Positions 432 through 17,781 of a stretch of DNA of 64,000 nt are shown here, piece after piece. Within the stretch, counting starts at the first letter, position 1. Every line of letters starts with the position of its first letter. The notes below the pieces were generated by a model. The model saw nothing but the letters and a program-made list of their open reading frames with translations. It had not been told where the DNA came from and did no database searches. The stretch spans positions 1 to 64,000 of the forward strand of contig NSIP01000014.1 of NCBI GenBank assembly GCA_002737725.1, written 5' to 3'. The translations under genes and the position numbers were made by a program. Source of the DNA: Rhodospirillaceae bacterium. Its GTDB lineage: Bacteria; Pseudomonadota; Alphaproteobacteria; Rhodospirillales; Rhodospirillaceae.

Positions 432-1535
432 TTATCTTCGCCACCACAGAACAAACCCAGTGACGAAAAGGGCCGGGAAGAATAACCCGGCAACAAACAT
501 GATGAGGCGCCCAGGGAGTCCCGCGATGGCACCGCTATGGAGACTAGCGGCAAAATCCGCAGAAAGCAGAGATGTCCACGTCGGTGCAGCCGGGACCGAA
601 ATGCGAATGATACTGCCGTTGAAGCGATTAACGAATACCGTCGTTTGCTTGTCGACAGCGTTCTCACCGGGGGGGAAGACCCTTATGAGGTAAAACGGCT
701 GAGGTCCAAGGGGCCTTAGAATAAACCCCAACCATGTTCCAGGTACGGCAGACAATGCAGAATTAGCGGCTTGTTGCCATGGAATCGTGGGGGCAAGTCC
801 TGCCCGTAGCGTTGCAGCTGGTGGGGCATTGCCTGCGACCAGACCGCTATTAGGACTTTGGGCTGCCGCTGGCGGTGGTCCGCCCGCTGGAGTTGTCATT
901 TTCCAAACAATGGGTGGAACGGTTAAAGCTGAAAGGAAGAGGAATACGAATAAGTAGACCCCACTGGTATTGTGCAGATCCTTAAGAACGCGGCGAGAGC
1001 TCCCATCCCATTTAACAGAAAGCGCCGACTTGAGTGTACCTTTGCGCGGCCACCAGACCACCAACCCAGCGACGAACATGGCCATGAGCAGCAAAGCAAG
1101 AATACCTAACGCGTTCTCACCAATCGAACCAAGCGTCAGATCGCCGTGAAGACGTCGGATCAACGCCATTGAAGATAGGCTGGACCGCGTACCGTTAACT
1201 GACGCCGTATACGGATTAATGAAAATCTGTTTTTCTTCGCCATTGGCATCGCGTAGCGTCACAACAAAAGCTCGCTCGGTAGCGTCATCTACACGAGAAA
1301 CAATGGAGGCTTTCCAGGCTGGATTCGCTTCCTCTGCAGCGGCAACCAGCTGGTCAAGGGGCAAAGGATGGCTTGCCGAGGATATAGTAAAAAGCTTGTC
1401 GTTTAAGGTAACGTCAAGTTCGTCTTCAAAGACGAGAAGAGACCCTGTGATTCCAACAATTACGGTCACAAGGCCAGCAATGATGCCAGTCCACCGGTGA
1501 AAGACGAGCCAGGCATTTTGAGTACCTGCCTTCAA
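432..1535 (-). CDS. PepSY-associated TM helix (PepSY_TM) family membrane protein
   Basis: A 367-residue inner-membrane protein with the usual four-helix layout of PepSY_TM proteins: helices near residues 14-36, 142-162, 192-212 and 343-364, and a large periplasmic loop containing the PepSY-like segment (about 50-120). The family signatures FHRWTG, RRLHGDL and DLHNTSGVY are present; the histidines in them are thought to bind haem in relatives. Members are commonly coupled to TonB receptors and linked to reduction of iron from imported siderophores, and here the gene lies directly downstream of a TonB receptor on the same strand. No ATG fits the frame: the likely start is TTG at 1535, with an in-frame stop shortly upstream. 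The start is therefore uncertain, the family assignment is not. Confidence 0.82.
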   Translation of the reverse strand: MKAGTQNAWLVFHRWTGIIAGLVTVIVGITGSLLVFEDELDVTLNDKLFTISSASHPLPLDQLVAAAEEANPAWKASIVSRVDDATERAFVVTLRDANGEEKQIFINPYTASVNGTRSSLSSMALIRRLHGDLTLGSIGENALGILALLLMAMFVAGLVVWWPRKGTLKSALSVKWDGSSRRVLKDLHNTSGVYLFVFLFLSALTVPPIVWKMTTPAGGPPPAAAQSPNSGLVAGNAPPAATLRAGLAPTIPWQQAANSALSAVPGTWLGFILRPLGPQPFYLIRVFPPGENAVDKQTTVFVNRFNGSIIRISVPAAPTWTSLLSADFAASLHSGAIAGLPGRLIMFVAGLFFPALFVTGFVLWWRR

Positions 1536-1645
1536 ACGCCATTCTCCATATTCGCTGTCCCCTCTTTAATCCGTCGATAACTCCTGACCGATTTTCTGGA
1601 CCAGCCGCAAACAATCAAGCTACTGCACGTTTGACCATCGAGCCC

Positions 1646-4093
1646 CTAAAATCGGTAAGACGCCCGCACCCCGCCACGGACTGGCTCTGGTGATTGAAAA
1701 CTGTTTGACCTGCTGCCAGGTGATGTAAAGAAGGCAAAGAAGTCGCCCTGGGCAAATCCACTCTTGATCGTCTTTTCATCGAACACGTTGTCCACATATC
1801 CAGTAATGGACCACGCCTCCGAATCAAGCGTCAAGCGCAGATCAACGTTGGCAAATCCGCCAAACCATTGACCATTGAATTCGTCAAAGTACCGCTTGCT
1901 CTGATATTGGGCGGCAACCTCGGCGATTAATTCCATTCCATTCTCCAACGGCTGGGTGAATGCAATTGAGCCGCTGAACGCATGCTTCGGCGCACGCTCT
2001 AACTTATTGCCCGCCAAGTTCAGTTTGCATTGTGTGCTTTGGGCGCCAGTCCCGATTTCGACAATCTCGCACTCTCCCGCGTAAGCGATACTTGATGCGG
2101 TACGTGTGAAGACATTGAATTCCGTGTATTTCGCATCCAGATGCGTATATGCGGCGTTCAAACGCAACTGGTCGGTCACCGCAAGCGTTGTGTCGAGCTC
2201 AAGGCCATAGACGCGAGCACCGCCTGCATTGGAGACAACACCCCGAAAGCCCGATGCTGTGGTCGGGTCTACCACAGTACTCGAAACCTGCTTGTCTTTG
2301 TAGTCCATGTAGAACGCAGCGGGATTGAAGATGGCTTTGCCGTCCAGCCAAGACGTCTTGGCGCCAACCTCGTAATTCCAAAGCTTTTCGGGCGAATAAA
2401 TATTATCGACTAAACGATTGAACACCCCAACGGTCGAAATCCCGCCAGGCTTCACGCCCTTTGCCGCGCTTGCATACAAAAGTGCGTCATCGGTCGCTTT
2501 GAATTGAGCAAAAACTTTTGGTGCAAAGTAATCTTGGGAGAGCGGCAAGCCCTTAGGGCCCGGAGCGCCCGGCGCAGTGCGTACAGGCGTTGTGCCAACG
2601 CCGGTGCCAATTTGGCTTGTCGGAAAACCATAAACGAAATCTTCCCAATACTGCCGCGCTTCAACACCAACAGCGAATTGCGACGTGACATCGTACTCAA
2701 GAATTCCATACAGCGACTTATGCTCTGTATTTCGACTTTCGCCAGTCGACGTAATCGCTGGGTTGTTTGCGAGAATATTGTTGAGCCCAGCGGAAGCAGT
2801 TGGTGTTGTAAGCAAAATAGCGTAGCTGCGATTCGCTTGCGTTGCCTTTTCTTGCCAAAATAATCCGCCCGCCATCCAGCGCACGCCGTCGCCGTCGAGA
2901 TGAGAAATCCGAAAATCCTCACTAACCTGCTGGGTCCAACCATCCGTAAAGAATTCGAAGGCTGACGGCAGTGGTTCGCCGATGCCGCCCGGCGCAGGCA
3001 ACGTTACTGCAACGGGTTTTGCGCCATATCCATCGATGTCTTGGAAGACTGTCGACTTCGCATGGAGATAAGCTGTGGTTGACTCAATCGTAGCCACACC
3101 AATGTCGTATTCGGCATGAACGCGACCAAACACTGTATCGAGTGAGGCGCCTGGGTAATCAGTTAGTGTTTTTGGGTTTAAACTCACGCGCACAGTGCGA
3201 TCGGGTTTAAATTCGCCTGGGGCTGGCCCCAGTATCGATGCAGGGATCGTGAAATTCCCAATGCGCCGTCCAGATACGCTTGACGGCAACGGGACCGTCA
3301 CAGAGGACTTGTTTACAGACCCTATCTGCAAGTAAGGCTGCTGTTCCGTGTCATTCTCGCTGTAACTCAGGGATGCAACCAAGCGGAACTCATCATTCGG
3401 GGTCGCCAATGCGGTCAGTGTGCCTTGAGCGCTTTCATAACCACCCAGGTTTTTCCCAGAGACTGTGTTTTCATGATAACCGTCAGCGCGAGAATAGGCC
3501 GCGTAGCCACGCAGTCCGAGTTTCTCGCCAGCGACGGGACCTGAAGCAGATCCTGCAATTTCGTATGTGCCATGGGAGGCAACAGTGCCGCTGACTTTGC
3601 TTTCGAACTCTGGGCCAGATGTTCTCGTGATGTAATTAATTGCCCCGCCAAATGCGACACGGCCGTAAAGGGCGCTTTGCGGTCCCTTCACGACTTCAAT
3701 TCTCTCGACATCGAGAAGACGAAGATTGAGAAGCGTTCCGCCACCGGCTGTCGTGACAGCTTCGGTTGAGACGTCGACGCCATCAATCAACACCCCAATC
3801 GGCGGGCGACCGCGGGTGGCCGGTAAACCGCGAATCGTCGGGCGTGTATCCTGGGCGCTGAAACCTTGTTCGAAGATAAGGCTTGGCGTCAGCTTTGCGA
3901 TGTCGTCGATCCGGGTAATACCGGCTCGCTCAATGTCAGTGGCAGTAAATGCAGTAACCGAGAGAGGAATTTCCTGGAGTGTTTCGGCTCGCTTACGCGC
4001 CGTCACGACGATCTCTTCAATTTGCGCGCTTGCAGACTCAATTCCGAGAGCTGTTGCCGAGAGCAAACCTAGCAAAATTTTTCCGCGCTTCAT
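1646..4093 (-). CDS. TonB-dependent outer-membrane receptor
   Basis: 815 residues with a Sec signal peptide ending at SASA-Q, a TonB-box-like IEEIVVTARKR just after it, a plug domain (about residues 40-165, including IPLSVTAF, RGLPATRGR, RIEVVKGPQSALYGR and GGAINYIT), and a beta-barrel ending in the C-terminal aromatic residue (SYRF) needed for outer-membrane insertion. It imports an unknown ligand using TonB energy. It sits between a DUF1838 gene and a PepSY_TM gene, all leftward, suggesting one transcription unit. It is a paralogue of the receptor at 40.8 kb: both have the unusual QDTR...RGL..TRGR plug signature. The substrate cannot be inferred; siderophores, glycans or aromatic compounds are all possible. 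Confidence 0.93.
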   Translation of the reverse strand: MKRGKILLGLLSATALGIESASAQIEEIVVTARKRAETLQEIPLSVTAFTATDIERAGITRIDDIAKLTPSLIFEQGFSAQDTRPTIRGLPATRGRPPIGVLIDGVDVSTEAVTTAGGGTLLNLRLLDVERIEVVKGPQSALYGRVAFGGAINYITRTSGPEFESKVSGTVASHGTYEIAGSASGPVAGEKLGLRGYAAYSRADGYHENTVSGKNLGGYESAQGTLTALATPNDEFRLVASLSYSENDTEQQPYLQIGSVNKSSVTVPLPSSVSGRRIGNFTIPASILGPAPGEFKPDRTVRVSLNPKTLTDYPGASLDTVFGRVHAEYDIGVATIESTTAYLHAKSTVFQDIDGYGAKPVAVTLPAPGGIGEPLPSAFEFFTDGWTQQVSEDFRISHLDGDGVRWMAGGLFWQEKATQANRSYAILLTTPTASAGLNNILANNPAITSTGESRNTEHKSLYGILEYDVTSQFAVGVEARQYWEDFVYGFPTSQIGTGVGTTPVRTAPGAPGPKGLPLSQDYFAPKVFAQFKATDDALLYASAAKGVKPGGISTVGVFNRLVDNIYSPEKLWNYEVGAKTSWLDGKAIFNPAAFYMDYKDKQVSSTVVDPTTASGFRGVVSNAGGARVYGLELDTTLAVTDQLRLNAAYTHLDAKYTEFNVFTRTASSIAYAGECEIVEIGTGAQSTQCKLNLAGNKLERAPKHAFSGSIAFTQPLENGMELIAEVAAQYQSKRYFDEFNGQWFGGFANVDLRLTLDSEAWSITGYVDNVFDEKTIKSGFAQGDFFAFFTSPGSRSNSFQSPEPVRGGVRASYRF

Positions 4094-4195
4094 TGACGTC
4101 CCCTAAATTCGATCGACAGTGCCGGTAGTGGTATAGGTATGTTACGTTTTGATGCAATCCATTGGAACTGGAGCCTAAAAAATAGTCGCTGAGCG

Positions 4196-4221
4196 ATCAT
4201 GGCGGCGGCTATAGCCATGAT
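4196..4221. repeat. 8-bp perfect inverted repeat between DUF1838 gene and TonB receptor gene
   Basis: ATCATGGC and GCCATGAT flank a 10-base loop in the 160-base gap between two leftward genes. There is no T-tract on the leftward strand, so it does not look like a simple terminator. It could be an mRNA processing or attenuation hairpin that gives the receptor and the upstream enzymes different expression levels, or a protein-binding site. Confidence 0.45.
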
Positions 4222-4254
4222 TTTAGTGTGCATTATGTCGGAGCTAAATTGCGG

Positions 4255-5163
4255 CTACGGCAAGCGACCTGCAGCCTTGAGCCGCTTAGCCATGGCTGAC
4301 GGCCCCTGATCGAACTCGGGCGACCTATCGAAGATATCGGCGTAATCTTTGGTTACCTTAGCCATGTAATCTTTTGGCAGGCTTTCCCAAGATCGAACTT
4401 TATAACCTGTCGCGTGCCACAACATATGCCCAGGCTGATCGGGCATTTCCATCCATGGATACCAGTTCATGAGAACGTGCCCCGCAAAGTGACATGGCGC
4501 CCACGATGTCTTTTGATCCATGACCTCAGAGTAACGGGAGAAGAAAGATTGCATTGAGCCAGAGGGCGGTTGACGTAGCTCCGCTGGCCATTTGATCTCG
4601 CCACGAAAAGACAAATCATCTTCGATCAATGAGATGTCCATATCAAATCTCGAGTCTTTATAGAACTCTGGATAGGCTTGGCGAACAATATTGATAAAGA
4701 CGCCGTCCTCTGAAACCTCAGACCCCTCAGGTACGCGACTGACGTAATGGTTTATTTTGTTGGTCTTTCCCGTCAGAGGATTTTTAAACTCCGTCAGAAT
4801 TTCGTCTGTTTCATAGTCGCACAAAAAATTTATGAGCGAATTGTAACGAAGAAATTTTGTATCTGAGATGGGTTTGGTCCACTGATGTTCACACCCTTTA
4901 AACCGTAGTATTGGCACGGGTGTTCTGCCTGGTACATAGGCTGCAATGACGCCACGAGTGCGCCAAATCACCTTCTCTTCCACCAAGCTTCCCTGAGCCT
5001 TCATGAATGCCCGAACACGATCGGCGCGCGCCATTCTCGAAAGGCGATCTGATTCTTGAGCTGCGCGTGCGGCGCTAGGAGCAAGCAAAGCTCCTACACT
5101 AAATGCCGCACCCATTAACACCTCTCCAAGATCTCGACGTGACATCCCATCCGGCAGCATCAT
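4255..5163 (-). CDS. DUF1838 family protein with Tat signal
   Basis: 302 residues. The N-terminus (SRRDLGEVLMGAAFSVGALL then an APSAARA cleavage region) is a twin-arginine signal, so the protein is probably exported folded to the periplasm. The body has the DUF1838 pattern: a W-R-x-x-G segment, a YETDEILTEFKNPLTGK segment resembling the family's conserved DPxTGExLxxWxNPxTGE line, and a tryptophan/histidine-rich C-terminal half. The family has no established function as far as I know. An AAAGGAT-like ribosome site precedes the ATG at 5163. The nitrilase-fold gene ends 27 bases upstream, so the two are very likely cotranscribed. A second, more diverged exported protein of this general type lies at 54 kb. 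Confidence 0.75.
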   Translation of the reverse strand: MMLPDGMSRRDLGEVLMGAAFSVGALLAPSAARAAQESDRLSRMARADRVRAFMKAQGSLVEEKVIWRTRGVIAAYVPGRTPVPILRFKGCEHQWTKPISDTKFLRYNSLINFLCDYETDEILTEFKNPLTGKTNKINHYVSRVPEGSEVSEDGVFINIVRQAYPEFYKDSRFDMDISLIEDDLSFRGEIKWPAELRQPPSGSMQSFFSRYSEVMDQKTSWAPCHFAGHVLMNWYPWMEMPDQPGHMLWHATGYKVRSWESLPKDYMAKVTKDYADIFDRSPEFDQGPSAMAKRLKAAGRLP

Positions 5164-5190
5164 TTTCCTATCCTTTTCTATAAACTTCGA

Positions 5191-7269
5191 TCAAATCGGG
5201 ATAAATTCTCCGTCCATCTTCTTCAGGTCAGTCAACGACGTTGGAAGCTTTTTGGTCGCGCGTGACTTTTCCTCGTGAACGACAGCGGGCTCGACTGCAA
5301 TTCCTTCGGGCGCAACAAAAATGCCGCGTTGGTAATAGCTTTTCAGAACTTTCTTGAGTTGAGCGAAGCCGAGATAGGGGTTTTCGAGTGGGTTTGGGCC
5401 CCAGAGATTATTCGCAAGCCCAACGCTCTGTGCGTATTGGTCAACATATGTCGCCGGATCGTCCCAAATCACCAGGTTTGTCAGTGGGTTTGCGCGCGCG
5501 CGCCGCAACGATTTGAGATCAATGTTGCCTTGTAATATGCATGGCCCTGATCCGTCAGCAACGCCCTGGATAGAGCCATCAAAGTTCACAATTTTTGTAT
5601 GCCCTCGCATTTGTGTCGAGGGTACGCCCACATCGGCAGGATTGAAGTAGATGCCACCGGGCATCGCCGACAAAATGTATGCTGTATTTTCGAAGGCACG
5701 GGTTTGACGTGCCAAATCCCAACCGAGCCGACCCGATCCATGCCCTTCAGATGATGGATGGATGATGACCTCGGCTCCATACTTCGTAAGCATTCGGGCA
5801 ACTTCTGGATGCGCCTGATCAAAACAGACCATAGTGGCGAGTCGGCCAAGTGGCGTATTGGCAACCGGGAACAAAAAATCATAACCGAATGCATCGAGAT
5901 AGCGATCATAAACGCTGCTGGGCGTGGTATCGGGTAACGACCCCCAGACGTCGGCGCATTGAATTTTTCGGTATCGATGAATGAGATCACCGGAATCATT
6001 CAGAATGAAGGCGGAATTGAACACATGCCCCGGCAATTTGTCATCGATCTCAAAAGAGGAGCCAGCAACATAGGTTTTGTGCTTCAGCGCAAAATCCTGA
6101 AGCAACTCAAGTTCTGGGCCAGGATACCGAACAGCCAACCGCTGCAATGTAATGGGCGAACGATATCCATGACCTCCCTGGCCGGTCATGAAAAATTCGC
6201 CGAACACGACAAGCCTAACAGCAGGATTCGACGCCAGTCGGGCTGGGAGTTTCATCGCCTCGATGATATTATCGCGGCGGATCTCATCGACATTGCTATC
6301 TCGTTGGATAATTTTTTTGATGTTCTGTGTCAGCAAGACATCATAATGATCGACCGCACCCGGTGGCGGCGGTGGGAAATCGCCAGCAGCCGCCAAACGT
6401 TCTTTTGCTTCCCCGACCCACGAATTCGTTGATCTTGGCTGAGGCGAAACCGCAGTTTGTTTTTGCGCAAGCTTCTTATAGCCGTCAGCGAACAAGTTTG
6501 CGCGCAAGTGCAAGGGCTGAACAGAGAAAATAGAATGGCGTCTGCGACGCAGCTTTTCGATGTCGACGTCAGGGAAGATGGCGCCCTCCCCGCCCTGTGC
6601 CTCCGTGCCTTTCGCCATCCAATCAACCACGCCAGACATCGATGGGCGGCGTTGGCCATTTGGGCCATTCGCCGCTGATGCTGTGGCAATATAGACGGTG
6701 TTCTCGAAAGCACGCGCAACCCGCGCATTTCGGCGTGACACGAAAAGATGATCATTCGCTTCGATAGTCGGGTGAAGAATGATCTCGGCCCCGGACCAGA
6801 CCAGACTGCGCGCATAATGGGGAAACAGGAGGTCTTCACTCGTGAGCAGTCCAATTTGTCCCATTGGCGTTCGTGCTACGGGAAAACGTGCCACCGTACC
6901 AAGAGAACATATTTCACCATCGACAAAGCCCTCAATAAGGGACGGTGAAATCTTTGGCATTACGAGCAGAGAATTTCCATCGGCGTCGAAAATAAATCCA
7001 ACTACGTGATGACCGACCCGGCCTTCACCTTGTACTCGCGCAGCACCAGCAACGTAACAGGCTGACTTCTTGGCGATTGCGCCAATCGCAGATTGAAGAT
7101 CAGGTAACTCTGGCGGCAGGGGGATCTGCTCGGCGAGCGGCAACAGAACTAATGGTCCTGCCAATCCCAATGGATTACGGCGGCGCCAGGTGGCCGCCAA
7201 AGAACAAATTTCAGCATTAACCTCATCATAGGAGATCGTCGACCATGATTTTTGTGAAAGAACTAGCAT
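5191..7269 (-). CDS. Tandem nitrilase-superfamily (CN hydrolase) protein, N-terminal domain lacking catalytic Cys
   Basis: 692 residues, about twice the usual nitrilase-fold length, made of two carbon-nitrogen hydrolase domains. The C-terminal domain (about 310-600) keeps the full Glu-Lys-Cys triad: E358 in VVFGEFF, K435 in HRYRKIQ, C482 in MVCFDQAHPE. The N-terminal domain (about 1-240) keeps E47 and K106 but has Ser144 (LLTSEDLLFP) where the nucleophilic Cys should be, so it is probably catalytically dead or altered. Both domains retain the ARAFENT / TRAFENT helix. The enzyme should hydrolyse an amide, carbamoyl or nitrile C-N bond; substrate unknown. No signal peptide is visible, so it is probably cytoplasmic. 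A clear AGGAG site precedes the ATG. It is the first gene of the leftward block, divergent from the IclR regulator. Confidence 0.85.
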   Translation of the reverse strand: MLVLSQKSWSTISYDEVNAEICSLAATWRRRNPLGLAGPLVLLPLAEQIPLPPELPDLQSAIGAIAKKSACYVAGAARVQGEGRVGHHVVGFIFDADGNSLLVMPKISPSLIEGFVDGEICSLGTVARFPVARTPMGQIGLLTSEDLLFPHYARSLVWSGAEIILHPTIEANDHLFVSRRNARVARAFENTVYIATASAANGPNGQRRPSMSGVVDWMAKGTEAQGGEGAIFPDVDIEKLRRRRHSIFSVQPLHLRANLFADGYKKLAQKQTAVSPQPRSTNSWVGEAKERLAAAGDFPPPPPGAVDHYDVLLTQNIKKIIQRDSNVDEIRRDNIIEAMKLPARLASNPAVRLVVFGEFFMTGQGGHGYRSPITLQRLAVRYPGPELELLQDFALKHKTYVAGSSFEIDDKLPGHVFNSAFILNDSGDLIHRYRKIQCADVWGSLPDTTPSSVYDRYLDAFGYDFLFPVANTPLGRLATMVCFDQAHPEVARMLTKYGAEVIIHPSSEGHGSGRLGWDLARQTRAFENTAYILSAMPGGIYFNPADVGVPSTQMRGHTKIVNFDGSIQGVADGSGPCILQGNIDLKSLRRARANPLTNLVIWDDPATYVDQYAQSVGLANNLWGPNPLENPYLGFAQLKKVLKSYYQRGIFVAPEGIAVEPAVVHEEKSRATKKLPTSLTDLKKMDGEFIPI

Positions 7270-7390
7270 TTTTCAATCTCCTATGACGGCGCTCATATGA
7301 TCAAAGATATCCTAGAGGCCTTCTAAGCCATCGTCACAATGGCTGGCGTTTTAAAGACTGCAAACGCGAGCCAACGAAAATCTTGACCAA

Positions 7391-7420
7391 CTAACTTACT
7401 AATAAATCAGTAAATGTTAG
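7391..7420. promoter_or_regulatory. Candidate IclR-type operator in divergent intergenic region
   Basis: The 258-base gap between the divergent nitrilase-fold and IclR genes contains nested inverted repeats: outer arms CTAAC (7391-7395) and GTTAG (7416-7420), inner arms TTACT (7396-7400) and AGTAA (7409-7413), with an 8-base AT-rich centre. An imperfect two-part palindrome of about 30 bases in an AT-rich divergent promoter is the expected setting for an IclR-family operator controlling both directions. This is inference from symmetry and position only. Confidence 0.5.
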
Positions 7421-7528
7421 ACATGGGCTCTTGCATAGTTCTCGTGTTTATTTGATCGGCTGGCGATTATACTTAAGCTACATCTGACTAGTTGCGCCCA
7501 AGATGACACATTGGAGCTCTAAAATCAT

Positions 7529-8311
7529 ATGGCCAGAATAAAGCCTTTAGAGGGCTTAGAACGCGCACTGAGTGTATTGCGAGTTTTAAACCAACATGTT
7601 GGAGCGACGGTCTCAGAGCTCGCACGCCTTACAGGCATGCCGCGCGCTGCCGTAAATAGATACATCGTTACATTCATTAATTTGGGGTACGTGTTTCAAT
7701 CAAAGCCAGGCAGTGGCCTTCGCGTGAGCGTGCGAGCATTAGAACTCTCGCGTGGCGCCCGAACTGACTATTGGGTCACGACAGTAGCGCTGCCCGAATT
7801 GAGCGCGTTGTGCCACGACATTGGCTGGCCCATTGGTCTGGAAAGTATAGTCGCAGCTCGACTGGCGATTCTAGTCAACACAGATGCGATTTCACCTTTC
7901 GTTGCGAAGCCACTTGATCAACAAGTCACCTTTCCCCTGATCGGGCGCGCTTCAGGGCATGTGCTGCTGGCGTTCACAAATGCCGAGACCCGCGAAGACC
8001 TATTAAAATGCGCACTTGCCGATGACTCAGCCCTGTTGACGCGCGCGGGAATGACGGTGAATAAATTAATGGAGAAATTGAGAAATGTCATCGAACTCGG
8101 TTACGATACTCAACGTGTTTCGCGTGCGAATTGGGTGGTCTTGGCCGTCCCTATCCTGACTGTTGGACAAGCGCGGTTTTCTCTCTCGGTGAGATTCAGA
8201 TCGAATGCCATACCCTTGGAACGCGCCATCGCGCGATTCATACCGAAACTCATTAAAACGTCCCAGGCGATCGCCAAGCATGTATCTGGATTTGATCAAA
8301 CAATAACCTAG
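7529..8311 (+). CDS. IclR-family transcriptional regulator
   Basis: 260 residues with an N-terminal winged helix-turn-helix (about 10-70; SALSVLRVLNQH-type first helix, TVSELARLTGMPRAAVNRYI recognition region, then the wing) and a C-terminal IclR effector domain (about 85-250). IclR proteins are dimers that bind palindromic operators and respond to small aromatic or organic acids, often controlling adjacent catabolic genes. It is divergent from the nitrilase/DUF1838/TonB block and 125 bases upstream of the solute-binding protein, so it may regulate both. ATG at 7529 is the first start in frame with the domain. The conserved Cys often seen near the IclR effector C-terminus is not evident. Confidence 0.87.
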   Translation: MARIKPLEGLERALSVLRVLNQHVGATVSELARLTGMPRAAVNRYIVTFINLGYVFQSKPGSGLRVSVRALELSRGARTDYWVTTVALPELSALCHDIGWPIGLESIVAARLAILVNTDAISPFVAKPLDQQVTFPLIGRASGHVLLAFTNAETREDLLKCALADDSALLTRAGMTVNKLMEKLRNVIELGYDTQRVSRANWVVLAVPILTVGQARFSLSVRFRSNAIPLERAIARFIPKLIKTSQAIAKHVSGFDQTIT

Positions 8312-8436
8312 GACCGATCGCAATCTTCGGCCAGCAGCCGACGCGCGAGAAACAATCGCGACGCACATAGACCTGCGCTGCAAAAGCCATTAGACGCGCT
8401 TGGGGATGCAGCGAAAATAAAAAAGGAGCTGCCACT

Positions 8437-9969
8437 GTGAATCTTAGCATATGGACGCGTTGCACTCTGTTCCTGATCGGCACGTGCACTACAATTACGG
8501 CCTGGGATGTTCACCCAACCAAAAGTGAGACATTGACGATTGCTGCGCCTGGTCGCCCACCAGGACTGGGGAACCCATACGCATCAATGGCGACCGGTGG
8601 GATCCATTCATGGGGATACATGTTTGATGCCCTGACGACTCTTGCTGATGACGGTAGTGTAGCGCCCAGTCTTGCAACGCATTGGGAAATCAAATCGGCG
8701 ACGCAGTGGCGATTCCATCTTCGGCAAGGCATACAGTTTTCAAATGGCGAGCCATTCACTGCCGCCACTGTTCAAGCTGTCATCGACACTTTGCAGTCAC
8801 CCGAGCTCGCTTCACTTTATGCGGCAAACGAGGTTCGCACCATTGTTGGCGTGACAATTGTTGACACTTACACTATTGATATCGTCACGCGCACTCCTGA
8901 TGCCATTCTTGATCGGCGCTTGAGCCACATTTACATGGTTCCAGAGAAGGCCTGGAAAGAGCTCGGGCAAGATCGCTTTGCCATGGAGCCCATCGGTTCA
9001 GGCCCCTACCAATTGGTTGATTGGGGAATGAAGCGCGGCCGCTATGAACTGAAACGCAACCCAAGCTCATGGCGCAGAAACACAGACATCGACCTGATCC
9101 GATTTCAGGTGCTTCCTGACCCCACCACTCGAGAGCAGGCCCTCACCTCTGGCCAAGTCGACTTAGCCTACAATCCAGGCCTCGATAACCTGAAAGTGTT
9201 GAGCGATCTTGGCTTTATTGTCGTGGCGCGTGAGCGCAGCCCGGTGGAAGGAATTGCATTACCGAATAGAGATCCCAAGTCGCCGCTGTCAGATGTTCGC
9301 GTTCGCAAGGCAATGAATCATGCGATCAACCGAAGTGAGATTGCGGCGACGCTGATGCAAAACGTGACGAAGACAAATGCTCAGGGCGTGCTTCCGGAAA
9401 TGTTTGGCTACAATCCTAACATCGAATCATACTCATTTGATCGAGACCTGGCACGACGGATGATGGCCGAGGCAGGGTACGAAGAAGGTTTTGACCTCAC
9501 CCTGACAGTTCGCCTTGAGGGTAAAGGTCCTGAATGGCCGTCGATTTACCAAGCCGTCATTCAAGACCTGACGGCCATCGGTGTTCGAGTTACATTGCGC
9601 AGTGTTCCATCGCAAGAATGGTTGAAAATGTGGAACACAGGGGATTGGAATGGGGCCGACATGATTCCATTTAGCTGGACATCGACCTACCGAGACGCGG
9701 GCCGCGCTATCGAAACAGTCTCCTGTGCTAAAGCAGGCGCGTTTTTCTGCTTACCCGAGTTGATGCCCCGCATCAACGCCGCCGCACAAGAGCTTGATCG
9801 CGATAAACGTCGGATGAGTCTCCAGCAGCTATTAGCCGAACTGCGCGATTTGGCGCCCTCCATCAATCTCTTTCCGCAGGTTGAGACGGTTGCCTACCGT
9901 AAACGCATAGAAACCCTTCCATTTGAGGCTGGTTATTACAGAATTGAGAAAATCAAGCTCGGAAAGTAG
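8437..9969 (+). CDS. ABC transporter substrate-binding protein, family 5 (peptide/opine/nickel type)
   Basis: 510 residues with an N-terminal hydrophobic export signal and the SBP_bac_5 fold: FDALTTLADDG near the start, the FHLRQGIQFSNGEPF segment typical of DppA/OppA-like proteins, and SDVRVRKAMNHAINR in the second lobe. These periplasmic proteins bind peptides, opines, glutathione-like or heterocyclic solutes. The start is GTG at 8437, supported by a strong AAAAGGAG eight bases upstream. No ABC permease or ATPase genes lie nearby, so it either works with a transporter encoded elsewhere or acts as a scavenging or sensing protein. It follows the IclR gene and precedes an FGE-like gene. A paralogous orphan is at 47.9 kb. 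Confidence 0.9.
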   Translation: MNLSIWTRCTLFLIGTCTTITAWDVHPTKSETLTIAAPGRPPGLGNPYASMATGGIHSWGYMFDALTTLADDGSVAPSLATHWEIKSATQWRFHLRQGIQFSNGEPFTAATVQAVIDTLQSPELASLYAANEVRTIVGVTIVDTYTIDIVTRTPDAILDRRLSHIYMVPEKAWKELGQDRFAMEPIGSGPYQLVDWGMKRGRYELKRNPSSWRRNTDIDLIRFQVLPDPTTREQALTSGQVDLAYNPGLDNLKVLSDLGFIVVARERSPVEGIALPNRDPKSPLSDVRVRKAMNHAINRSEIAATLMQNVTKTNAQGVLPEMFGYNPNIESYSFDRDLARRMMAEAGYEEGFDLTLTVRLEGKGPEWPSIYQAVIQDLTAIGVRVTLRSVPSQEWLKMWNTGDWNGADMIPFSWTSTYRDAGRAIETVSCAKAGAFFCLPELMPRINAAAQELDRDKRRMSLQQLLAELRDLAPSINLFPQVETVAYRKRIETLPFEAGYYRIEKIKLGK

Positions 9970-10099
9970 TTGGCGCTATACATAGCTTTTGGTGGATCAC
10001 ATAGCTTCTGATAGATCGATGAAAGTCGGCCAAGCCAGCCAATTTATGAAATTGAGCTGAGCGACTTTGCGTTCGCCACACAGCATAATGAGGATAGCG

Positions 10100-11023
10100 A
10101 TGCGTAAATTTTTTGGTTCTGCGATCGTTCTTGGTGTCTGGCTTTGGCATCCTCAAATGCTGCGCGCACAAGCAACCTTTCAAGACTGCTCAACCTGCCC
10201 TGAGATGGTGATGGTGTCTGCGGGCCGTTTCGAGATGGGCGCGACAAAAGAGGAAAATATGCGTGAACAGTCACCAGAGCGCTACATTGCGTGGGAAAGT
10301 CCCTTACGTATTGTAAGCGTGCCTCAGCCTTTCTCGATCAGCGTGGCCGAGGTGACTAAAGAACAGTTCTCGGCTTTCATGACTGATGCACAACCCACCA
10401 TTGAAGGATGCGATATCGCCAAGGGAAATGAGTGGGACCGCCGGGCCGATAAGTCTTGGCGTGATCCTGGCTTTGCACAGGGCCCTCATGAACCAGTTGT
10501 ATGTGTGAACTGGAGTGATGCAAAAGCATATACGCAGTGGCTCGCCAAACGAACCGCTAAGCCGTATCGGCTACTCACAGAAGCCGAGTGGGAGTATGTC
10601 GCGCGGGCAGGTACCCAAACGGCGAGGTTCTGGGGCGATGGCCGAGAAGACGCGTGTCGGTATGCAAATGTGCCTGACGCAGCCCACGTCAAAATGACCC
10701 AGAATGGCCAAGGAACGTTCGCGTGCAATGATGGCTATGCTTACACCTCTCCGGCGAAGTCTTTTCAACCAAACGCGTTTGGCGTTTACGATACGATTGG
10801 TAATGTATGGGAGTGGGTGGAAGATTGCTTTCATGAAAGCTATATAACCGCACCGAGCGATACGGCGGCTTGGCAATCTGATCCGGCGTGCACGTATCAT
10901 GTGGCACGAGGGGGATCTTGGAATCCGCGCCTGGCCACACAACTGAGGAGTGCCGCCCGTGGTCGTGTAACAACCGCGCTACGGAATTCTAATCTTGGTT
11001 TTCGTCTAGCCGTGACACCATAG
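10100..11023 (+). CDS. Exported FGE-like (SUMF1/PvdO-type) protein
   Basis: About 307 residues: Sec signal (MRKFFGSAIVLGVWLW...LRAQ), a DCSTCPEMVMVSAGRFEMGA start typical of the formylglycine-generating-enzyme fold, VCVNWSDAKAYTQWLA, YRLLTEAEWEYVARAG, NAFGVYDTIGNVWEWVEDC and VARGGSWNPR near the end. The region after RGGSW, where true FGEs have the two copper-binding Cys, contains none (NPRLATQLRSAARGR), so sulfatase activation is unlikely; no sulfatase is present. Relatives with this fold include PvdO and EgtB-like iron enzymes. I chose ATG 10100 over two upstream in-frame ATGs because AGGA sits 5-8 bases before it and the signal peptide then starts normally. A paralogue lies at 15.0-16.0 kb. 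Confidence 0.85.
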   Translation: MRKFFGSAIVLGVWLWHPQMLRAQATFQDCSTCPEMVMVSAGRFEMGATKEENMREQSPERYIAWESPLRIVSVPQPFSISVAEVTKEQFSAFMTDAQPTIEGCDIAKGNEWDRRADKSWRDPGFAQGPHEPVVCVNWSDAKAYTQWLAKRTAKPYRLLTEAEWEYVARAGTQTARFWGDGREDACRYANVPDAAHVKMTQNGQGTFACNDGYAYTSPAKSFQPNAFGVYDTIGNVWEWVEDCFHESYITAPSDTAAWQSDPACTYHVARGGSWNPRLATQLRSAARGRVTTALRNSNLGFRLAVTP

Positions 11024-11062
11024 AATCAAAGTTTACGTCTAAGTTCCTAAGGACCGCATGAC

Positions 11063-11707
11063 ATGATACCCGTACCCAGACTACCAGCAGCTGAGAAGTT
11101 TATTTCACAGATGCGGGCCATGTTCGCCGCCACGCCAGAATTACCTCTGCGCTGGGAGAAGGCTCGCCAACTGCTCGCGGACATGCTGCGAGATCCAGAG
11201 GTTCGTCAGCATGCCCAAACATGGCCCGACAGCCCAGCCATCCTCGGCCTTGAGGGCAAGCACGGAAACCTGTTGCTCTATGAAGACCCCGATTGGGGTT
11301 TTTGCGTTAACGCACTCATCAAAAAACCCACGGCAAAGACTACAATCCATGATCATGGTGTCTCATGGACATTGTACGGCGTCATCGAAGGCGGCGAGGA
11401 CGTCGCGCGATTTGAACGCATCGATGATGGCACGCCAGGGGATTTGCCTAAATCCGCAACAGTCCGCGCGACTGAATCCATCCCCGTTGGGCCAGGCTAT
11501 ATTGACTTGATCAAGCCTTGGGAGATTCACGCGGAGTACAACAGGCCAGAACGTACAGCTGCGATTATCATCCGCAGTCAAAAATGCGGCAGCTATATCC
11601 AAAATATTTTTTACCAGAAGGACGGCACGGTCGAGCAGTACTGGGGCCCGCAACAAATTCCATTTCATTTTGGCTGGAATCGTCAGTCAGGCGACCACAC
11701 AGCATGA
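11063..11707 (+). CDS. Cupin-fold protein, cysteine-dioxygenase-like
   Basis: 214 residues, no signal peptide, so cytoplasmic. A cupin motif 1 is visible as TTIHDHGVSWTLYGVIEGGE with H96 and H98, and a candidate third metal ligand H156 in PWEIHAEY. Spacing and the HDH...YGVxEG pattern resemble thiol dioxygenase-like cupins (cysteine or 3-mercaptopropionate dioxygenase), non-haem iron enzymes that oxidise a thiol to a sulfinate. The exact substrate cannot be read from the sequence. A TAAGGA ribosome site precedes ATG 11063. Its stop overlaps the next start (ATGA), so it is translationally coupled to the metallo-hydrolase. Confidence 0.72.
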   Translation: MIPVPRLPAAEKFISQMRAMFAATPELPLRWEKARQLLADMLRDPEVRQHAQTWPDSPAILGLEGKHGNLLLYEDPDWGFCVNALIKKPTAKTTIHDHGVSWTLYGVIEGGEDVARFERIDDGTPGDLPKSATVRATESIPVGPGYIDLIKPWEIHAEYNRPERTAAIIIRSQKCGSYIQNIFYQKDGTVEQYWGPQQIPFHFGWNRQSGDHTA

Positions 11708-12579
11708 GTACGGCAATCGCCGATTTACCAGGCCCCTTTGCCGCACGGCGTGTGATTGAATTCGAAGGCCCTTATCTAGCTCCTGAATTCCTATTGCCCG
11801 ATGCTCAACCAGGCGCTTTCCTGGCGACAAAGGCATCGCAGGATCCACGCTTCTATGAGAAAGCCACCAACAAAGTGGTCATGGCCAACCATTCCATCCT
11901 GATCGTCACGCCGCGCTCGAAAATATTGGTCGACACATGTATCGGAAATAATAAGCACCGCCCGCGCAACCCCCATTGGCATATGCGCACGGGGCCGTTT
12001 CTTGAGGACCTCAAATCCATCGTTGCGCTGGCCGACATTGACTACGTTCTCTGCACGCACTTACACGGCGACCATGTGGGTTGGAACACGCACCTTCAGG
12101 ATGGCAGATGGCGACCGACGTTTCCGCGCGCGAAGTATCTGTTCGGCCGGACGGAAGTAGCATTCTGGCAAAAGGCCATCTCTTCAGATCCTGAAACTAA
12201 TCATGGATCTTGGGTCGACAGCATGCAGCCGATTTTCGATGCTGGCCAAGCAATCGTGGTTGACGACGACTACGAGATCGAACCTGGCGTTCGGCTGGTC
12301 CCCGCCCCTGGCCACACGCCAGGCAACATCATGATTAGGCTGGAGCACGGCGGGGCGATCTCATACGTCATCGGCGACACCATGCATCACCCCGTACAGA
12401 TCGAACGACCAGAGTGGTCGTCAAAATTTTGCTGGGACAAGTCGCTGTCGACTCAGGCACGTCAAAGCCTGCTTGAAGCAATTGCCGATACGGGGGCCTG
12501 GATCATCCCCGCTCATTTTCCAACACCCACTGCATTGCGAATTGAATCTCATGCTCATGGATTCAAGAGTTGTGGCTAG
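11704..12579 (+). CDS. Metallo-beta-lactamase-fold hydrolase
   Basis: 291 residues. The di-zinc motif HxHxDH is explicit (THLHGDHVG, H119-H121-D123-H124); APGHTPGNIM supplies the next His, GDTMHHP the bridging Asp, and IPAHFPT the last His. The arrangement resembles AttM/AhlA-type lactonases and related esterases. No signal peptide, so cytoplasmic. The frame extends further 5', but ATG 11704 overlaps the cupin stop by four bases, the usual coupled arrangement, and the domain begins soon after. It converges with the amine oxidase gene 19 bases downstream. Lactone or ester hydrolysis in the same pathway is inference. Confidence 0.85.
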   Translation: MSTAIADLPGPFAARRVIEFEGPYLAPEFLLPDAQPGAFLATKASQDPRFYEKATNKVVMANHSILIVTPRSKILVDTCIGNNKHRPRNPHWHMRTGPFLEDLKSIVALADIDYVLCTHLHGDHVGWNTHLQDGRWRPTFPRAKYLFGRTEVAFWQKAISSDPETNHGSWVDSMQPIFDAGQAIVVDDDYEIEPGVRLVPAPGHTPGNIMIRLEHGGAISYVIGDTMHHPVQIERPEWSSKFCWDKSLSTQARQSLLEAIADTGAWIIPAHFPTPTALRIESHAHGFKSCG

Positions 12580-12597
12580 AGGGCCGGCACTTAAACC

Positions 12598-14040
12598 TTA
12601 AAGCAACGCCATCACCTCCAAGGCCGCACGCTCACCGGACTCCATGGCGCCTTCCATTCCACGATTGGAGACGGCTGTGTGCTCGCCGCAGAAATGCAAT
12701 CGCCCTGCTGGCTCCTTGAGAGCCGGTAAACTTTCGCTGAGCTGACCCGGCCTCCAAACAACCCAGTCACCGCCAGAGAAGCGGTCGGACTGCCATGACT
12801 TAAACCCGCCAGCAACCAATTGACCTTTCGCTGCGGGGCGCAGCTTTTCATAAATTGAGATGATGTGCGCCATAGCATCTTTCTCACTCATTAAATCAAG
12901 TCGATCTGCAAGGAATCCGCGCGCCCAAGCCATAAGGCAGGTCACCTTGTTGGGATCTTCGCCTTCGCGTAGCGCACGAATTTCACCCGCATCGGTGTCC
13001 GTCCACATCGCTGGGCTAAAGCCGTCTTCTTTCCAGAACGGCTTCTTAGGCACGATGACCACTTTCGTGATCTTCATGACAGGTACGGTACGGATCGCTT
13101 TGGCTTTTAAAGGCGGCAGCAGAGGGTCAAACTTGATCCATCGCATTGTTGGCAAAGGCAGTGAGCAGATCAAGCGCTTCGCCTTGAATAGGCTCCCATC
13201 CTCACATTGAACCTCGACGGCATCTGCACTCTGTCGAATTCCTACAACAGCTTTACCGAGATGAACATCACCAACAGCACGTGCCATAGCTTGAGGAATA
13301 CTTTCGTTCCCATCCACGGCTTTGTAAGCCACGCGCTGAATATCAGACTGGAGTTTGAACCACGCTTGCGTGAAGTACCACATCAAGATCGAACTGTCGT
13401 GAGCAGACGTTCCATACTGAATATTCGTGTTGTAATTGAGATCAATTGCCGCATCAGACCAGCCATGACTCTTGAAGAAGTCATAGGCTGAGCCATCAAA
13501 TTTAGCGCTAGCCGGGTCTATCCAATCCTCAAATGATTTCAGTGGGTTGTGTTTATCGATGAGGCTCTGAAAATAAGCACGACCTGGAAAGCGAACTTTA
13601 GCATCCTCAGGCATAACATTCAGCGGATGCATCGCCCAATCAGCGCGTCGAATCACATTGCCGCCGAGAGCGAGTTCAACGGTCACGGGATCTTTTTGAG
13701 CATCGGGCGACAAATCCCGACGACCTTCGAAGTCGATGAGCTCAACTTTTAATCGGGCGGCTATGTCTTGCATCCGGCCGTAGCCGCCTAAGATACTATC
13801 TGCACCCATTTCAGGGTTGCCCTCGACTGATCGTAGGGTGCTCATCCGACCGCCGACGCGGTTGCGGCCCTCTAAGACCGTCACCTTAAACCCCTGATCT
13901 TTGATTAAGAGCGCGGCATTGAGGCCCGAAAGACCAGAACCAATCACGATGACATCAGTTATGTCTGATGCTGCACGGGCCGAGCGCAAAGTGCTCGTCG
14001 CCACGCCTGCTGCAATGATCTCTCGCCGTGAAATTCTCAT
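12598..14040 (-). CDS. Flavin amine oxidase with Tat signal (copy 1)
   Basis: 480 residues. The N-terminal ISRREIIAAGVATSTLRSARA is a twin-arginine signal, as expected for a flavoprotein exported folded. The FAD-binding Rossmann motif follows (VIVIGSGLSGLNAALLI, then LEGRNRVGGRM), and the C-terminal FAD/substrate segment is GRLHFCGEHTAVSNRGMEG. It is the last gene of the leftward operon 17412-12598, 38 bases after an alpha/beta hydrolase gene. The family oxidises primary or polyamines, amino acids or similar C-N bonds. It is clearly paralogous to the copy at 16.0-17.4 kb (shared EKLRPAAKG, GMExAMExGERAAxEV and SAHDxSILxWYF segments). Confidence 0.9.
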   Translation of the reverse strand: MRISRREIIAAGVATSTLRSARAASDITDVIVIGSGLSGLNAALLIKDQGFKVTVLEGRNRVGGRMSTLRSVEGNPEMGADSILGGYGRMQDIAARLKVELIDFEGRRDLSPDAQKDPVTVELALGGNVIRRADWAMHPLNVMPEDAKVRFPGRAYFQSLIDKHNPLKSFEDWIDPASAKFDGSAYDFFKSHGWSDAAIDLNYNTNIQYGTSAHDSSILMWYFTQAWFKLQSDIQRVAYKAVDGNESIPQAMARAVGDVHLGKAVVGIRQSADAVEVQCEDGSLFKAKRLICSLPLPTMRWIKFDPLLPPLKAKAIRTVPVMKITKVVIVPKKPFWKEDGFSPAMWTDTDAGEIRALREGEDPNKVTCLMAWARGFLADRLDLMSEKDAMAHIISIYEKLRPAAKGQLVAGGFKSWQSDRFSGGDWVVWRPGQLSESLPALKEPAGRLHFCGEHTAVSNRGMEGAMESGERAALEVMALL

Positions 14041-14078
14041 TTTCTCGAATCCTGTGCTGTAAGTTAAAATTCTGGCTT

Positions 14079-15011
14079 CTATTTTTTTGATTTTATAGTA
14101 CGCAGAGTAAAATTGCGAAGGTCACGGTTAAAGGCATCCGCCGCATCAAAAAACAACCAGTGCCCCGCCCCCCTGTAAGTCTTGAGATCGGCTTTAGGGA
14201 ATCTTGCTTTGATGGCGAGTTCAGCCGCTTGTGCGGATGAAAAGGCATCCTTCTCGCCCAACATAAAAAAAAGCGGCAAACTCAGACTTGGGATTTGATC
14301 CTCGTTATTTTTATAAAAAGACCCATCGGGCAAGATTTTTGGGCCATCATTCGCTTTGCGTGCATATGGCGGATACATCAGGTTTGTTGCCGTGACGCTG
14401 GCCTCAATATCCGACGGCAGACGCTCAGCCGTAAGAAATGATGTGAACTCAACCGCTCCTTGTATGTTTTTCGCGACGTCAGCAGACTTAAGTTTCTCAG
14501 AGGCCGCTGGAATGCGTGGGTTAAGTTCGGAATTGGGATAGAGCCCGCTGCGCGAAGCTGCAAAAACAATTCCTGACAAGTTCGCTATTCCACGGCAGCG
14601 GACATAATCCATCCCTATTGTTCCACCATACGACCACACAACCATAACGGGGCTCGTCAAAGCCGTCGCGGCCATTACGGCGGCCACATCATCAGCCCAT
14701 ATGCATGACTGATTGTATGACGTCGCAAGCCAGGGCTTACCAGACCCGCCATGCCCGCGCAGATCGAAGGCAACGAGGTGAAATGACGATACGAGATCGG
14801 AATGGAGTTGGCGATCCCAACTGGCATAGCTTTGGCCTACGCCGTGAATGAGCAGGATCCCAGGTGCGTCCGGTGACCCTGCTTCAACGACGTTCAAAGG
14901 AACACCGTCCGGCGCAACAATCGTTTGGTAACGCAGCAACTCAGATTTTGCCGCCGACACGGCGCCACCACAGACAAGCAGGCCAATCAGGAGTGCGGCT
15001 TTACACGACAT
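14079..15011 (-). CDS. Exported alpha/beta hydrolase
   Basis: 310 residues from ATG 15011, beginning with a Sec signal (MSCKAALLIGLLVCGGAVSA). Fold landmarks: ILLIHGVGQSYASWD for the oxyanion hole, FDLRGHGGSGKP, a nucleophile elbow VVWSYGGTIG (Ser with an atypical Val in place of the first Gly), GEKDAFS for the acid and GAGHWLFFD for the catalytic His. Probably an esterase or C-C hydrolase in the periplasm. The frame extends upstream into the preceding FGE-like gene, but the signal peptide marks 15011 as the true start, giving an 11-base overlap and hence translational coupling. Confidence 0.87.
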   Translation of the reverse strand: MSCKAALLIGLLVCGGAVSAAKSELLRYQTIVAPDGVPLNVVEAGSPDAPGILLIHGVGQSYASWDRQLHSDLVSSFHLVAFDLRGHGGSGKPWLATSYNQSCIWADDVAAVMAATALTSPVMVVWSYGGTIGMDYVRCRGIANLSGIVFAASRSGLYPNSELNPRIPAASEKLKSADVAKNIQGAVEFTSFLTAERLPSDIEASVTATNLMYPPYARKANDGPKILPDGSFYKNNEDQIPSLSLPLFFMLGEKDAFSSAQAAELAIKARFPKADLKTYRGAGHWLFFDAADAFNRDLRNFTLRTIKSKK

Positions 15012-15969
15012 CTCGTGCAATCCGGAATCCAAAGTGATGCCCAGCTTTGGGCTCAGGGTCTCGCCCTCGAAACGTAGGACGGTGGCGATCTTGGCGTGTA
15101 TACCAACTGCCGCCACGAACGGCGCGTAGTTCGCAACGACCGCTCACTTCGACCGCTGTCCCATCGACCGGAGCGGCTGGATAGAGCTCGAGTGAGCAAT
15201 CTTGCACCCACTCCCAGACGTTGCCGAGCATGTCATACAAGCCAAATGCATTGGGCTTGTATGAACCGACCGGAGCAATCATGCCGTGGCCATCACGGCA
15301 ACTAAGCGGTTCCCACGAGAGTTTTGAGCCCGCTGGAAGTGCGCTCTGGCTATCCAGGTCAAATGTATTTTCATAGTCACAGGCTTGTTCGTCCTGAGTG
15401 CCCCACGGCCATTTTGTTTTAGTTCCACCTTTGGCAGCGTACTCCCATTCGGCTTCTGTTAAGAGTCGATAACGCTTGCCCGTCATTGCAGAAAGCCAAG
15501 CTGTGTAGGACGTCGCGTCGTTCCAACTCACACACACGACAGGTTCACGCGGTTGCGGGCTTCGACCAAACAGCGGGCCGCGAAACGTCACTGCGCTGAT
15601 CATCGGCTTGTCCATGCCCACACCGCATTGGTTCGCGGGCTCATGTCCGGTCTCGTTTACAAAGATCGCGAATTCCTCGTTCGTAACTTCATAACGACCG
15701 ACGCCAAATGCGTATGAAATAGAAACTGAGCGCTCAGGCCCTTCCTGTCGAGGGATACCACCGCGCATCTGATTGATCGCGTTAGAGCCCATCAAGAAAC
15801 TACCCGGTGGGATAACAACAACTTCTGGACATGTCGGGCAGTCCTTTAAAATCTGACTGCCACGAAAAGACTCGGCTGCAGCCGACACGCTACTAGTGGC
15901 GAGAGTAAATAGCATATGTGAGATGCATAGCTTCGTTACCAAAGAGATTCGGCAGCTTTTTGTTTTCAT
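15001..15969 (-). CDS. Exported FGE-like (SUMF1/PvdO-type) protein, second copy
   Basis: 322 residues with a Sec signal ending around SSVSAAAE, then LKDCPTCPEVVVIPPGSFLMGS, parallel to DCSTCPEMVMVSAGRFEMGA in the copy at 10.1 kb. Further FGE-fold landmarks are RYEVTNEEFAIFV, VVCVSWNDATSYTAWLS, YRLLTEAEWEYAAKGG, NAFGLYDMLGNVWEWVQDC and RAVRGGSWYTRQDRH. As in the first copy, no Cys follows RGGSW, so formylglycine formation is not expected. It lies between amine oxidase copy 2 (15 bases upstream) and the alpha/beta hydrolase (overlapping), in one leftward operon. Confidence 0.87.
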   Translation of the reverse strand: MKTKSCRISLVTKLCISHMLFTLATSSVSAAAESFRGSQILKDCPTCPEVVVIPPGSFLMGSNAINQMRGGIPRQEGPERSVSISYAFGVGRYEVTNEEFAIFVNETGHEPANQCGVGMDKPMISAVTFRGPLFGRSPQPREPVVCVSWNDATSYTAWLSAMTGKRYRLLTEAEWEYAAKGGTKTKWPWGTQDEQACDYENTFDLDSQSALPAGSKLSWEPLSCRDGHGMIAPVGSYKPNAFGLYDMLGNVWEWVQDCSLELYPAAPVDGTAVEVSGRCELRAVRGGSWYTRQDRHRPTFRGRDPEPKAGHHFGFRIARDVV

Positions 15970-15984
15970 CCACCGGTGTCCTTG

Positions 15985-17412: not shown

Positions 17413-17781
17413 AAGCGAGGAGGCCTTTAAGTTACGACTCAATCTCTGTTTCAGTTGTATTAACACTCTAGTTGACTATTCGGGATTTTCCGAGGGTAAG
17501 TCGAGCAATCTCGACTAACGTTAAATCTATCTCATCTCGCCAAAGTGAGTAGCCTACTCTCATCTCGGTAGCCGGGAGTCTGCTTTCAGCTGCGATCCAA
17601 ATCACCTTCAAATGGCGGATTCAATGATCTTCACCAGCCTAGCACTCAACCCCTTAATAAAGAGGGTTGACGCATACAATTGATCACTGAACGATCAACT
17701 ATCGCATGCGTAAGTTACAATCTTGGCAATCAAGCTTAATTTGATACGAGAATATCCATTTACTCGAAGAGGAAATTCGCC
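17413..17781. promoter_or_regulatory. Divergent promoter region with inverted repeat
   Basis: About 370 bases without a gene, separating the leftward amine oxidase operon from the rightward small-protein/methyltransferase pair. It is AT-rich and contains TTGATC (17680-17685) and GATCAA (17693-17698), a perfect 6-base inverted repeat with a 7-base spacer. A TTGACG hexamer at 17667-17672 could be a -35 box, but I see no convincing -10 at the right spacing. A shared regulator acting here is possible. Confidence 0.35.

Follow-up and report, generated by a model that had tools for sequence, protein, structure and literature searches.

A conserved family of tandem nitrilase-fold proteins in which a putatively dead N-terminal domain is fused to a domain with an intact catalytic triad

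The window analyzed here, i.e., the whole stretch of 64,000 nucleotides of the Rhodospirillaceae contig, carries on its minus strand an open reading frame of 692 amino acids (5191–7269, stop codon included), which is a real gene encoding two nitrilase (CN_hydrolase) domains. The first-pass annotation proposed that a pseudoenzyme domain is fused in it to a domain with an intact triad; judging from the aligned relatives, this fusion is supported as a conserved trait of a whole tandem family, and not as a one-off event. Among the readings considered, the best supported one, which we hold to be somewhat probable, is that of a fused nitrilase pair in which the C-terminal domain is the working one and the N-terminal domain is its built-in dimer partner.

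Results

Tandem Gene, Domain Layout and Predicted Fold

The proposal of two nitrilase domains within one 692-residue chain was borne out by the Pfam scan, in which CN_hydrolase was found in two stretches (E = 6.1e-41). The whole protein reaches 140.9 bits with the PF00795 model (curated cut-off 23.2), the best stretch being 334–592, and 72 bits with the NCBIfam formamidase model PRK13287 (cut-off 406). The N-terminal domain (residues 1–300; 6370–7269), putatively retired from catalysis, was delimited by its profile match to the C-terminal domain together with a model and a structure search; the C-terminal one (residues 304–640; 5350–6360), bearing Glu-Lys-Cys, by Pfam, model and structure/profile search. 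A tail (residues 641–692; 5194–5349) closes the chain, with a pLDDT below 50 for residues 660–692 of the AlphaFold model. All these features lie on the minus strand.

AlphaFold placed both domains confidently in the full chain (35-row alignment; mean pLDDT 86.4, pTM 0.88), and the N-domain alone was modeled with a mean pLDDT of 86.0 and a pTM of 0.83. The rows listed by VIA-align for the full chain fell on the C-domain, and the N-domain was therefore folded and searched separately. The C-domain superimposes on Bacillus cereus formamidase with Z 31.5 and rmsd 2.4 over 269 residues, and the N-domain on the same enzyme (5g3o) with Z 28.6 and rmsd 3.4 over 252 residues, aliphatic amidase tying with formamidase in this search. 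As far as the models go, both halves are nitrilase folds, as the first-pass annotation had anticipated for the first domain. The block comprising residues 241–300 is better predicted in the full chain (pLDDT 76–94) than in the N-domain alone (50–82), and therefore these residues probably pack on the C-domain.

Formamidase AmiF (PDB 5g3o, 2dyu) and aliphatic amidase (2uxy, 2plq) are the nearest solved folds to both tandem domains (VIA-align Z about 28–31), with sequence identities of about 20–24% for the C-domain and 11–16% for the N-domain. They have Glu-Lys-Cys in common with the C-domain, but these entries consist of a single nitrilase domain, whereas the tandem protein comprises two fused ones, the first without Glu and Cys. 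On the other hand, the best PDB sequence-profile matches to both domains are Nit2/Nit3-type omega-amidases (2w1v, 1f89), which are also one-domain proteins. NitFhit (1ems) likewise combines a nitrilase domain with a further domain in a single polypeptide; its partner is a Fhit domain, whereas that of the tandem protein is a second, dead nitrilase domain. Among the papers listed from one open-access library, represented mostly by abstracts (and, for several searches, by the best 10–20 of up to 295), no description of a tandem or dead nitrilase was found.

Catalytic Positions of the Two Domains

The tandem alignment contains 73 rows corresponding to 70 distinct genes, the three remaining rows being truncated repeats of others; 69 rows reach column 144, the other four being truncated there. 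A set of 25 ORFs shorter than 460 amino acids (single-domain ones plus one C-domain fragment) was excluded, and the genomes that hold seven named loci contributed eight further tandem rows. The residues named in the first-pass annotation do stand at positions 47, 106, 144, 358, 435 and 482, and its assignment of the C-domain triad agrees with the alignment, as Glu358 (6196–6198), Lys435 (5965–5967) and Cys482 (5824–5826), the catalytic Glu, Lys and nucleophile, respectively, are identical in 73/73 rows.

A second Glu after the catalytic Lys is a trait of the nitrilase superfamily. In the tandem rows, no conserved Glu was found between Lys435 and Cys482, in a loop of uncertain alignment; with the same uncertainty, the profile alignment sets Tyr457 against the Glu that follows the Lys in Nit2. 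This column holds Tyr in 73/73 rows (and Tyr in six, Leu in one and a gap in one of the eight further rows), and Asp440 is also the same in 73/73 rows. That second Glu is named in a paper on the superfamily (PMC4700190). The chemistry of the C-domain may differ from that of textbook amidases.

The picture is different for the N-domain, whose profile aligns with that of the C-domain with a probability of 99.6 (E = 6.9e-25), pairing Lys106 (6952–6954) with Lys435 and Ser144 (6838–6840) with Cys482; in the model, residue 144 opens the helix following the elbow strand, as 482 does in the C-domain. The position proposed for the nucleophile was thus correct, but not the "Cys to Ser" replacement, since the relatives have Gly, never Cys. 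Column 144 holds Gly in 65, Ser in three and Lys in one of the 69 rows, a negative answer to the question, raised in the first-pass annotation, of whether Ser is conserved there, and the eight further rows add seven Gly and one Asn. Over the 77 tandem rows, the count is 72 Gly, three Ser, one Lys, one Asn and not a single Cys, which would have pointed to a one-off mutation; a one-off loss from Cys is accordingly discarded. A conserved Ser nucleophile is discarded too: of the 23 rows that share 50% identity or more with the window protein, counting the latter, Gly144 is present in 22 and Ser in the window protein alone, a tandem protein 84% identical to it from a genome of the same genus having Gly. 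The other two Ser144 rows belong to a single paralogue, present at both L071 and L072.

Regarding the remaining two residues ascribed to the N-domain triad, Lys106 is indeed retained (64/69 rows, with four gaps and one Leu; six Lys, one Arg and one gap in the eight further rows), but Glu47 (7129–7131) lies off the aligned position. The structural counterpart of Glu358 is Leu45 (7135–7137), in a column holding His (42 rows), Gln (9), Leu (6), Ala (4), Glu (3) and others among the 69 rows, and column 47 is not conserved (Asp 27, Pro 13, Ser 8, Glu 7, Val 5, Ala 3 and others); the two columns are so close together that single rows may be misaligned. Glu47 as the catalytic Glu is rejected on both grounds. 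Instead of Glu-Lys-Cys, the window protein reads Leu45-Lys106-Ser144, and in the aligned family the N-domain usually has Gly in place of the nucleophile, lacks the Glu and keeps the Lys.

Selection, History and Conservation of the N-Domain

In seven orthologue pairs, dN/dS ranged from 0.025 to 0.27 for the N-domain vs 0.004–0.039 for the C-domain, the ratios being rough for those pairs in which dS is near saturation; the N-domain is under purifying selection, 3- to 12-fold weaker than that on the C-domain. In a quick tree of 120 rows, 18 chosen N-domains form one clade (SH-aLRT 96) and 18 C-domains another (99); many forks are open, there are long branches that join, and where the N-clade falls relative to the single-domain proteins is uncertain. 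N-domain branches are longer than those of the C-domain (0.77 vs 0.17 for the window protein). The tandem family predates its paralogues, and, on the simplest reading of these sequences, the N-domain had already lost its activity when the tandem paralogues diversified and is still maintained.

Conservation of the N-domain relative to the C-domain is uneven along the fold. The N/C ratio is 0.91 for the elbow strand and helix, 0.93 and 0.89 for the post-elbow helices, 1.03 and 1.08 for the adjacent strands and 1.00 for the tail (residues 251–270). Intermediate values correspond to the Arg helix (0.83), the Lys loop (0.80) and the loop 169–175 behind the second strand (0.76), and the lowest ones (0.67–0.69) to the lost-Glu loop, the first helix, the first strands and residues 216–236. 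Furthermore, Glu162, Arg241, Arg244 and Arg256 are invariant (69/69 rows).

Distribution and the Wider Set of Nitrilase-Fold Proteins

A scan of named genomes retrieved 22 related loci with 54–84% identity, 21 of the records being titled MAG and one "uncultured." By title, they belong to Rhodospirillaceae (7), Rhodospirillales (1), Alphaproteobacteria (4), Rhodobacteraceae (1), Gammaproteobacteria (6), Steroidobacteraceae (1), Lysobacterales (1) and a proteobacterium (1). The genome of the window carries three tandem genes. Among the matches listed for 98 relatives, those spanning both domains occur in at least 17 genomes (the window's included), all from the window's own family, and seven of these genomes have three tandem genes within about 10 kb. 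In an even sample of the phylum (E ≤ 1e-30), two of the 398 genomes gave a match, namely the window's own and one with a C-domain-only hit; with at most two candidates scored per genome and few close relatives drawn, this speaks of rarity, not of absence.

The window genome contains 23 PF00795 matches, corresponding, at loci L100–L122, to the three tandem genes (six matches) and 17 single-domain genes. The five genomes of the window's genus have 17–25 matches each, vs 1–10 (median 4) in 99 others of the order, a draw including none of the other tandem carriers. Ten of the 16 single-domain proteins scored in the window genome have no Cys at the nucleophile column, four of them (L114, L117, L118 and L120) being poorly aligned there and the 17th (L116) falling outside the scoring. 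In relatives, 50 single-domain rows from 40 loci, a biased choice as they were hand-picked from the best single-domain matches, read Glu-Arg-Cys (33), Glu-Arg-Ser (15) or Glu-Lys-Cys (2). The tandem family is part of a broader nitrilase-fold expansion in which catalytic residues are altered.

Several other arrangements were observed in this set. The single-domain genes of the window genome include a Glu-Arg-Ser group (L108, L110, L111 and L112). Adjacent pairs of single-domain nitrilase-like genes occur at L124–L131, both members being Glu-Arg-Cys, and at L133, L096 and L097, where one Glu-Lys-Cys lies beside one Glu-Arg-Cys; such pairs may correspond, as two separate genes, to the tandem design. 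Another group, apparently dead as well, is found at L028 and L029, in two relatives, with Ala at the nucleophile column, Met or Asn beside it, and no Cys there.

Gene Neighborhood

The gene next downstream of the tandem gene encodes a DUF1838 protein (4255–5163, minus strand), and an IclR-type regulator identified by family scan is divergent from it (7529–8311, plus strand), followed by a family-5 solute-binding protein (8437–9969, plus strand) and, further away, an FAD amine oxidase (12598–14040, minus strand). A tblastn search (E ≤ 1e-10) over up to 8 kb on each side of the 22 named loci, some on short contigs and with some weak matches (24–31% identity), found relatives of DUF1838 at 17 loci, amine oxidase at 11, alpha/beta hydrolase at 11, family-5 solute-binding protein at 10, metallo-beta-lactamase-fold and cupin-like proteins at eight each, TonB receptor at seven and IclR at five. 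At alphaproteobacterial loci of the L063 type, representative genes matched the Rieske oxygenase and molybdenum-hydroxylase families. Little of the gene set surrounding the 22 loci is present at the paralogue loci L080, L081 and L091.

Within the window, the region 432–17466 contains PepSY, TonB receptor, DUF1838, IclR regulator, solute-binding protein, two FGE/PvdO-like, cupin-like, metallo-beta-lactamase-fold, two amine oxidase and alpha/beta hydrolase genes, the second amine oxidase, the second FGE-like and the metallo-beta-lactamase genes having been named by similarity or reading and not by family scan. This region is likely a catabolic cluster, and the neighboring families at tandem loci suggest that a compound containing nitrogen, and perhaps a ring, is broken down.

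Discussion

In the main reading, the C-domain, whose nearest folds are formamidase and aliphatic amidase, would be the working amide (C-N) hydrolase. The N-domain would act as the second half of a nitrilase dimer, making of one chain an obligate pseudo-heterodimer, and the protein would function in the catabolism of nitrogen compounds together with the DUF1838, amine oxidase, alpha/beta hydrolase, metallo-beta-lactamase-fold and cupin-like proteins encoded around it. The post-elbow helices form the nitrilase A-surface. An underlying dimer across this surface is reported for known functional members of the superfamily (PMC4700190). Relative to the C-domain, the N-domain is best kept at the elbow, the post-elbow helices and the tail, whereas the loop of the lost Glu is kept least, a pattern in line with a built-in partner for dimerization. 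Dimer mimicry, as proposed from the first reading of the sequence, is plausible, with indirect support from the modeled placement of the two domains, the N-domain tail and the best-kept segments. Nonetheless, conservation of the elbow and helices is not interface-specific, because the same segments also make up the core of the fold, and the less-kept loop 169–175 counts against a built-in partner.

Lys106 and the Lys loop are well kept, needlessly so for a pure scaffold, and they bring in the main rival, an allosteric pseudoenzyme in which the old pocket, with Lys106 and conserved acids, would bind a substrate, product or effector and tune the C-domain. Asp146 (68/69 rows), Glu170 (68), Asp173 (66) and Arg179 (68) accompany Lys106 in this sense. 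These conserved charges may be structural, however, and little conservation is left where the Glu used to be and in the loop around it (ratio 0.69), odd for a specific pocket; we regard such a ligand sensor as rather doubtful. Quite unlikely is that the N-domain catalyzes a different reaction, dispensing with a Cys nucleophile, via Lys106, Asp146 and Glu145 (62/69 rows), despite the latter two adjoining the nucleophile position: the constraint on this domain is weaker than that on the C-domain, Gly occupies the nucleophile position, and the Glu is lost.

Cys at column 143 in 33/69 rows could also be taken for a shifted nucleophile, keeping the N-domain alive in those paralogues. We consider it very improbable, as all 33 rows are among the 46 less than 50% identical to the window protein, which has Thr there (the 23 close rows reading Pro in 19, Leu in two, Thr in one and Ala in one), and both spacing and model place 144, not 143, at the nucleophile position. 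Least credible of all is a decaying relic devoid of function; longer branches and lost catalytic residues would agree with it, but dN/dS is well below 1 in all seven pairs, and the four invariant residues contradict it as well.

Beyond the built-in dimer partner, a broader picture can be drawn, to which we give little credence for now: the nitrilase fold would have become in this bacterial group a repertoire of non-canonical proteins, including the Gly-Glu-Asp pseudo-domains of the tandem proteins and single-domain Glu-Arg-Ser or Glu-Arg-Cys forms. Within one network for the catabolism of nitrogen compounds, they would serve in allostery, as scaffolds or in new kinds of catalysis, and in the tandem protein, an obligate pseudo-heterodimer, the live half would be gated by the dead one.

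A single natural chain with a dead and a live half would separate the role of dimer contact from that of a second active site, and such a tandem nitrilase is testable with ordinary mutants. Besides, uncultured bacteria appear to hold many nitrilase-fold proteins whose catalytic residues are altered, and which family models would call hydrolases.
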